Assembly (NCBI GenBank): GCA_955652545.1
Contig: CATPCA010000190.1
Coordinates: 1 to 10,061 of the forward strand
DNA from: Candidatus Dormiibacterota bacterium
GTDB taxonomy: Bacteria > Chloroflexota > Dormibacteria > UBA8260
Direction of reading: 5' to 3'
Length of the DNA stretch: 10,061 nucleotides
Shown here in pieces: positions 5,616 through 6,907 of the stretch. Every line of letters starts with the position of its first letter. Within the stretch, counting starts at the first letter, position 1. Both the position numbers and the translations under genes were made by a program. The notes under the pieces are model-generated. The model had not been told where the DNA came from. It saw only the letters and a list, made by a program, of their open reading frames with translations, and made no database searches.

Positions 5616-5621
5616 GGGGAG
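5616..5621 (+). promoter_or_regulatory. Ribosome binding site deciding the obgE start (ACG 5630)
   Basis: GGGGAG immediately follows the rpmA stop, with 8 nt to the ACG codon at 5630, an ideal distance. The nearest canonical start codon in frame, GTG 5645, would be 23 nt away, too far for this site. This supports ACG as the real initiation codon. Confidence 0.65.
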
Positions 5622-5629
5622 CGGACACC

Positions 5630-6907
5630 ACGTTCCTCGACGAGGTGCTCATCGACGTCGCCGGCGGCGACGGCGGTCGGGGCGCGGTCAGCTTCCGTCG
5701 TGAGAAGTACGTGCCCATGGGTGGGCCCGACGGCGGCGACGGCGGCCGCGGCGGCGACGTCGTGGTCATCGCGGACTCCACCGACTCGACGCTTGCCGGC
5801 TTCCGAGAGCGGCGTCGGTTCCACGCCCCGCCCGGCGGCGCCGGCGGCAAGAACCTGCGTCATGGCGCGGCCGGCGACGACATCGTGCTGCACGTCCCGC
5901 CGGGCACGATCGTGCGCGACGCCGACACAGACGAGCTGGTCGCGGACCTCGACCACCACGGCGCCCGCATCGTGGTCGGCAGCGGCGGGCGCGGCGGCCG
6001 CGGCAACACCCATTTCGCGTCGTCGACGCGGCAGACCCCGCGCGTTGGCGAGCTCGGAGCCAAGGGGAGTGGGCGGCGCGTCCACCTGGAGCTGCGGCTG
6101 ATCGCCGACATCGGCCTGGTCGGGCTGCCCAACGCCGGCAAGTCGACCCTCCTCTCGGCGCTCACCGGCGCCCATCCGAAGATCGCCGCGTACCCGTTCA
6201 CCACGCTGCACCCCAACCTCGGCGTCGCGCAGACGCGCAGCGGCGCCACGCTGGTCATCGCCGATGTGCCCGGCATCCTCGAGGGCGCGCACCGCGGCGT
6301 CGGGCTCGGCATCGACTTCCTGCGCCACCTCGAGCGCACCCGCGCGCTCGTCCACCTCGTCGACGCCACGTCCGGCCCGGCGGGCGTGGCGGCCGCCGCC
6401 GACGCGGTGCGCGCCGAGCTTTCCGCGTTCAGTGGCGCACTCGCCGCCAAACCGCAGGTGCTCGCGCTCAACAAGGCAGACCTGCTCGACCCTGCCCAGC
6501 GTGAGGCGTTGGCCGCTCGGTTCCCGGGCGCGCCTCTGATCGCCGCCGCCGACCTCGACGGCACCACGGAGCTGCTCGAGACCGCGGCCGGGTTGGTGGC
6601 GACGGTGCGCACTCTCGAGCTGCAGGTCGCCCTCACGCAACCCGAGGCGGGCGAGCACCGCGTCTACCGCTATCGGAGCCGCCAGGCGCCGGCGGTGTCG
6701 CGCGACGGCGAGGCGTACCGCGTCACCTCCGACGGGATCGAGCGGCTCGTCGCCATGACCGACATGGAGAGCGACGAGGCGGTCGCTCGCCTGCAGCAGA
6801 AGCTGCGAGGGGCCGGGGTCGATGCCGCCCTCGCCGCGGCGGGCTGCAAGGAGGGTGACACGGTGCGCATCGGCGAGCTCGAGTTCACCTACGCCGATGA
6901 CGGCTGA
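5630..6907 (+). CDS. obgE: GTPase Obg/CgtA, apparent ACG start codon
   Basis: A 425-residue GTPase that binds the 50S subunit, acts in its late assembly and couples growth to guanine nucleotide state. Domain order from ACG 5630: the glycine-rich Obg fold (about 1-158; [20 protein letters not shown] and [12 protein letters not shown]), the G domain with G1 GLPNAGKST (165-173), switch [13 protein letters not shown]3 DVPG (212-215) and G4 NKAD (281-284), then the C-terminal OCT domain (about 343-425; VYRYRS to FTYADDG). Obg proteins start MF-DEV-I-V. Here the matching codons are ACG TTC CTC GAC GAG GTG, with no ATG, GTG or TTG between the rpmA stop and GTG 5645. Starting at GTG would lose five conserved residues. 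A ribosome binding site 8 nt before ACG supports the ACG start; a sequencing error (ATG to ACG) is the alternative. Identity is certain, the start probable. Confidence 0.95.

Follow-up and report, generated by a model that had tools for sequence, protein, structure and literature searches.

This locus raises the question of where translation of obgE begins when no ATG, GTG, or TTG stands at the N-terminus expected of its product. The DNA analysed was a stretch of 10,061 nt from a Candidatus Dormiibacterota bacterium (GCA_955652545.1, contig CATPCA010000190.1, positions 1 to 10,061, forward strand), referred to here as the window. Five genes, rplU, rpmA, obgE, nadD, and rsfS, are co-directional on its forward strand. 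The rplU gene (L21; 4645..5304; TIGR00061, 77 bits) starts with ATG, and its product of 219 amino acids is about twice the length of the family model and has a long C-terminal tail rich in alanine and lysine. It is followed by rpmA (L27; 5294..5614; TIGR00062, 116.2 bits), obgE (5630..6907, or 425 codons counted from an ACG, with the stop at 6905-6907), nadD (6897..7520; TIGR00482, 131.9 bits), whose ATG overlaps the obgE stop, and rsfS for the ribosome silencing factor (7530..7877; ATG start; TIGR00090, 107.2 bits). An open reading frame on the reverse strand (9221-10030) resembles, by eye, a C-terminal portion of a penicillin-binding protein and carries a proline-rich tail. The obgE product passed both ObgE/CgtA equivalog models (NF008955, 474.6 bits against a cut-off of 406; TIGR02729, 391.3 bits against 280.25).

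A sequence-only reading of the window had proposed that obgE starts at ACG. It had reported no ATG, GTG, or TTG (canonical codons in what follows) between the rpmA stop and a GTG at 5645, and reading the obgE frame confirmed this. After the rpmA TGA (5612-5614) the frame runs CGG GGA GCG GAC ACC ACG TTC CTC GAC GAG GTG; the stop is in frame, 15 nt before the ACG, and none of the five intervening codons is canonical. The ACG (5630..5632) is the sole near-cognate codon from that stop to Phe2. A Shine-Dalgarno-like GGGGAG (5616..5621) does lie upstream of both codons at the stated distances, 8 nt from the ACG and 23 nt from the GTG. The placing of ACG at residue 1 of the family N-terminus also held, because the NCBIfam ObgE models, with scores above their cut-offs, match from residue 2. 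By itself the window is weak evidence for the putative ACG start, because an ACG would occur by chance among these 6 codons with p of about 0.10 given the base composition; it is the comparative evidence that lifts ACG above chance. Folding of the RNA at the rpmA-obgE junction was mildly more stable than that of shuffled sequences (z -1.68, 7/200) and was given no evidential weight.

A scan of public genomes identified two near relatives, with 82% and 80% identity to the window. These are Ca. Amunia macphersoniae (genome G001; locus L001, numbered L081 in the class survey) and Ca. Aeolococcus gillhamiae (G002; L002, also L082), both members of Ca. Aeolococcaceae in the class Ca. Dormibacteria, and with the window they make up its own clade at the DNA level (n = 3). 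ACG TTC CTC GAC GAG GTG is found at the same place in all three, with the 18 nt identical. Recent kinship does not simply account for this identity, because the four-fold third positions of obgE are only 50-57% identical among the three genomes. A GGAG or AGGAG precedes the ACG by 8, 9, and 8 nt (duplex -6.6 to -7.7 kcal/mol), and in none of them does the open frame before residue 2 contain a canonical codon. Conservation of the ACG, which the sequence-only reading had proposed to check in related genomes, was thus found in both close relatives together with the Shine-Dalgarno sequence; neither carries the ATG which that reading had named as contrary to its claim, and ATG or GTG at this position is confined to lineages elsewhere in the class.

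Predicted protein starts, rather than DNA, were compared for 120 listed homologue clusters. Among the closest 62 (68% identity or more), none was predicted to start at residues 1-5; the predicted start was residue 6 in 22 clusters, residue 8 in 1, residue 20 in 15, and residues 30-45 in 24. Of the next 58 listed clusters, 36 have a predicted start no later than residue 3. The absence of N-terminal starts among the closest 62 therefore indicates that gene callers found no usable canonical start there. No relatives of the window ObgE were found in viral contigs. A sequencing or assembly error that turned ATG into ACG has a negligible chance of being the explanation, because the same triplet is present in two separately assembled public genomes (JAEKNN010000046.1 and QHBU01000255.1), and it is also at odds with the predicted starts of the closest clusters.

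Readthrough of the rpmA stop, or a frameshift at it, could produce an L27-ObgE fusion that is later cut. The two genes do share a frame in the window, in G001, where the gap is again 15 nt, and in the L085 group, where seven genomes have a gap of 21 nt. In G002, however, the gap is 14 nt and the genes are out of frame, and elsewhere in the wider clade gaps of 1, 11, 16, 37, and -1 nt were found. The rpmA gene ends on TGA in the window but on TAG in the two near relatives, G001 and G002. Stop-codon readthrough was rejected on this variation in frame among relatives, and a fusion of either kind is highly improbable.

A start at the GTG (5645..5647; Val6) would make the ACG incidental and ObgE five residues shorter. 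GTG is a common start codon, it encodes Val6 in all three clade members with DNA, and residue 6 is the predicted start that gene callers chose in the 22 close clusters counted above. However, in the class survey described below, Phe2 was kept in 88 of 92 genes and Asp4 in 92 of 92, which points to protein-level constraint on the frame before the GTG; that stretch is probably translated, because an untranslated one would not keep these residues. The Shine-Dalgarno-like sequence is also the more distant from this codon. Among the 18 wider-clade genes with no canonical start nearby, Val6 is encoded by GTC in 13, GTG in 4, and GTA in 1, and in the 14 genes with GTC or GTA the first canonical codon falls between residues 10 and 46. 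Moreover, 40 of the 62 closest listed clusters are called from later than residue 6, suggesting that the Val6 codon is often not a start codon. We judge the GTG to be unused, as its use would cost the constrained Phe2-Asp4 and it is not conserved in relatives; this alternative is unlikely. Taken together, the comparisons favor initiation of obgE at ACG 5630 in the window organism and its close relatives, to which we assign a probability of roughly 0.85.

We surveyed obgE across the class using the class group of G001, which contains 110 genomes. A match to obgE was found in 99; the 5' end was intact in 91 of these, and adding the window gave 92 genes; the 8 genomes with a partial obgE (G403, G412, G414, G284, G444, G429, G423, and G427) were left out. 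One of these, G403, has an ACG five codons before residue 1 of its broken match. Two genomes of the same family group, G398 and G402, had neither an obgE nor an rpmA match and added no start. A canonical codon was present within 9 codons of residue 1 in 44 of the 92 genes, at 10-15 codons in 4, and only farther upstream in 17; none was present in the open frame in 27. There were thus 44 genes in which the 15 codons before the family N-terminus contain no canonical codon, the 17 with a more distant one included. These 44 belong to two clades of the ObgE tree, 18 to a 25-gene clade that includes the window and 26 to a 28-gene clade. The tree was a quick one with some long branches, and five changes between start states suffice to explain it.

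A near-cognate start was assigned by hand in 37 of the 44 genes: ACG in 27, CTG in 6, ATT in 2, ATA in 1, and ATC in 1. A second near-cognate codon lies within 16 codons in 12 of the 37, and both the identity of the codon and its distance vary in the wider class. Outside the window clade, most candidate starts have no good Shine-Dalgarno match. The residue after the assigned start was Ala in 14, Pro in 9, Phe in 7, Ser in 5, and Thr in 2; small second residues are typical of proteins. The chance of finding some near-cognate codon is 24-68% per gene, which makes the evidence weak gene by gene. The product over 8 hand-chosen genes is 0.0019, from a rough null model that takes no account of coding constraints and includes the unassigned L181. 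In the remaining seven genes (L148, L154, L169, and L179-L182) no convincing near-cognate candidate was found close by; for L148, L154, and L179-L182, neither a canonical nor a convincing near-cognate codon is near the N-terminus. Apparent frame-shifting indels, possibly assembly errors, were seen by eye in the start region of L169 and in the gene body of L185 (about 1180-1200, reverse strand).

In the second clade, the assigned near-cognate codon lies inside the end of rpmA in most genes, so that rpmA itself might account for its conservation; the clade is informative because the rpmA tails differ in length and sequence. Read in the rpmA frame, the assigned codon mostly falls in Asn-x, with Asp-Ala in L168 and L174, His-Leu in L173, and the rpmA stop itself in L157. 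As an obgE codon, it is one of ACG, ATT, and ATC, and the residue after it is Pro, Ala, Ser, or Thr in 19 of the 19 assigned genes. The constraint on this codon seems to act in the obgE frame, because the obgE-frame codon stays near-cognate while the rpmA tails differ.

Genes outside the class served as one control. In all 122 such obgE genes a canonical start coincides with residue 1 or lies no more than five codons away; the ATG of L050 is one codon past residue 1. They comprise 50 genomes of the phylum group, in which 400 genomes were searched, 376 had an obgE match, and 50 outside the class were read, and 72 genome-contig loci (L009-L080), mostly Bacillota by title and placed outside the class by title and identity. 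Other genes within the class served as a second control. The start of rpmA was canonical at residue 1 in 91 of 91 (80 ATG, 9 TTG, 2 GTG), with one further gene at an edge. Canonical starts were likewise found in 35 of 35 rsfS genes and in 36 of 36 nadD genes, 25 of the latter starting a few codons after the aligned point. For rpsJ and der, a canonical codon was sought within 14 codons of a motif. It was present in 25 of 25 rpsJ genes, 4 codons before the motif in every one, and in all 27 readable of 30 der genes, 4-5 codons before the motif in 24 and elsewhere in 3. For rplU, a canonical codon was nearby in 29 of 33 and missing in 4. Four rplU genes (L119, L122, L123, and L124) have no canonical codon within 9 codons of the family N-terminus; all share a conserved ACG a few codons before it (4/4) and also have an in-frame ATG farther upstream.

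Among the genes checked, the near-cognate pattern of obgE appears clearly again only in infC, the gene for IF3. Of 104 genomes with an infC match, 50 loci were read at the aligned position five codons before LRIN, and a near-cognate codon was found there in 50 of 50 (ATC 26, ATA 19, ACG 3, ATT 2). This matches the type already known for infC and acts as a positive control. Four of these loci also have a canonical codon farther upstream in the open frame, at -40 in L238 and at -12 in L239-L241. The sequence-only reading had drawn an analogy to the AUU start of infC, and the analogy is now stronger, as near-cognate codons, with ACG included, are used by infC of this very class too. The three ACG loci are L206, L254, and L256 (G185, G097, and G434), and obgE of their clade starts at ATG or GTG. 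ACG in these three infC loci is independent evidence that ACG initiates in the class.

An altered initiator tRNA reading ACG through a CGU anticodon was considered as well. The initiator-type pattern, exact and allowing either CAT or CGT, matched 21 tRNAs in 16 of 17 genomes, with no match in G445. The anticodon was CAT in 21 of 21, each called tRNA-Met by ARAGORN, and no CGT initiator was found in the 17 genomes with this pattern, which would miss a changed stem. For the 17 genomes searched, the altered tRNA was rejected on these matches.

ACG is a very weak start codon in E. coli, which counts against the proposed start. At ACG 5630, the ordinary CAU initiator tRNA would read the codon with a mismatch at the middle base, with help from the GGGGAG Shine-Dalgarno sequence and, probably, from ribosomes finishing rpmA just upstream. 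Help from rpmA-terminating ribosomes may be general, because the assigned starts are close to where rpmA ends, and good Shine-Dalgarno matches are missing from most of them. IF3, which disfavors non-canonical initiation, would hold ObgE synthesis low and let it rise when free IF3 is scarce, such that ObgE output would parallel that of IF3's own gene; coupling to rpmA, if it operates, would tie ObgE to L27 output. Control of obgE by IF3 is put forward tentatively, at somewhat below even odds. In its broadest form, to which we give similar odds, IF3 in Ca. Dormibacteria would govern a small set of genes with near-cognate starts that includes at least infC and obgE, the 30S fidelity factor would directly set production of a 50S-assembly GTPase, and ACG would be a regular start codon exchanged in evolution with ATT, ATC, ATA, and CTG.

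A serious rival to this regulated version accepts the ACG start and removes the regulation: a strong start would have been lost neutrally, and the loss tolerated through coupling to rpmA. Because it lies within the accepted ACG start, its odds overlap with those of the regulated version, and we hold it to be just as plausible. The weak Shine-Dalgarno matches in most genes outside the window clade, the position of assigned codons near the rpmA stop, as reinitiation would allow, and the variation of the start among ACG, CTG, ATA, ATT, and ATC are all consistent with neutral loss. Against it, the 44 genes lacking a canonical codon within 15 codons are confined to two clades, and the tree requires few changes, although a single substitution makes ATG from ACG, and the neighbors rpmA, nadD, and rsfS retain canonical starts.

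The ACG start, regulated or neutral, points to a systematic annotation error: gene callers presumably recognize ATG, GTG, and TTG alone, and every one of the closest 62 listed ObgE clusters has been given a start other than its true N-terminus. Near-miss start codons have been known mainly for IF3's own gene; their apparent presence on obgE in this group of uncultured soil bacteria suggests that ribosome assembly is under a hidden translational control. A widespread ribosome-assembly GTPase with such starts in two clades offers a second gene, beside infC, for the question of whether further genes are regulated by IF3 by way of their start codons. Among titles and abstract openings in the open-licence literature, none described an obgE gene with a non-canonical start or a bacterium using ACG naturally as a start codon.

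Known systems offer three comparisons. In plastids, a genomic ACG stands where AUG is expected, a feature shared with obgE, and is converted to AUG by C-to-U RNA editing; PMC9845219 states that such editing has not been observed in bacteria. In bacteria, few genes with non-canonical starts have been characterised, according to PMC5472188, which describes IF3 as repressing starts at non-canonical codons. The same paper gives infC starts of ATT in E. coli and ATC in Streptomyces, with autoregulation by IF3. Like infC, obgE is a translation-related gene whose near-cognate start is kept across a clade, and infC of the same class uses ATC, ATA, ACG, and ATT. Unlike infC, its product is not the repressor itself, its codon is mostly ACG, it sits at the rpmA stop, and an effect of IF3 on it is a proposal. 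Also described there is sigR of Streptomyces, which has a GTC start repressed by IF3, as demonstrated with extra infC and infC fidelity mutants. Like obgE, sigR is distinct from infC, has a conserved non-canonical start, and is annotated wrongly by gene callers; its codon, however, is GTC rather than ACG, and control by IF3 is experimental in sigR and a candidate in obgE. From its conserved start, obgE is a new candidate of the infC and sigR kind.
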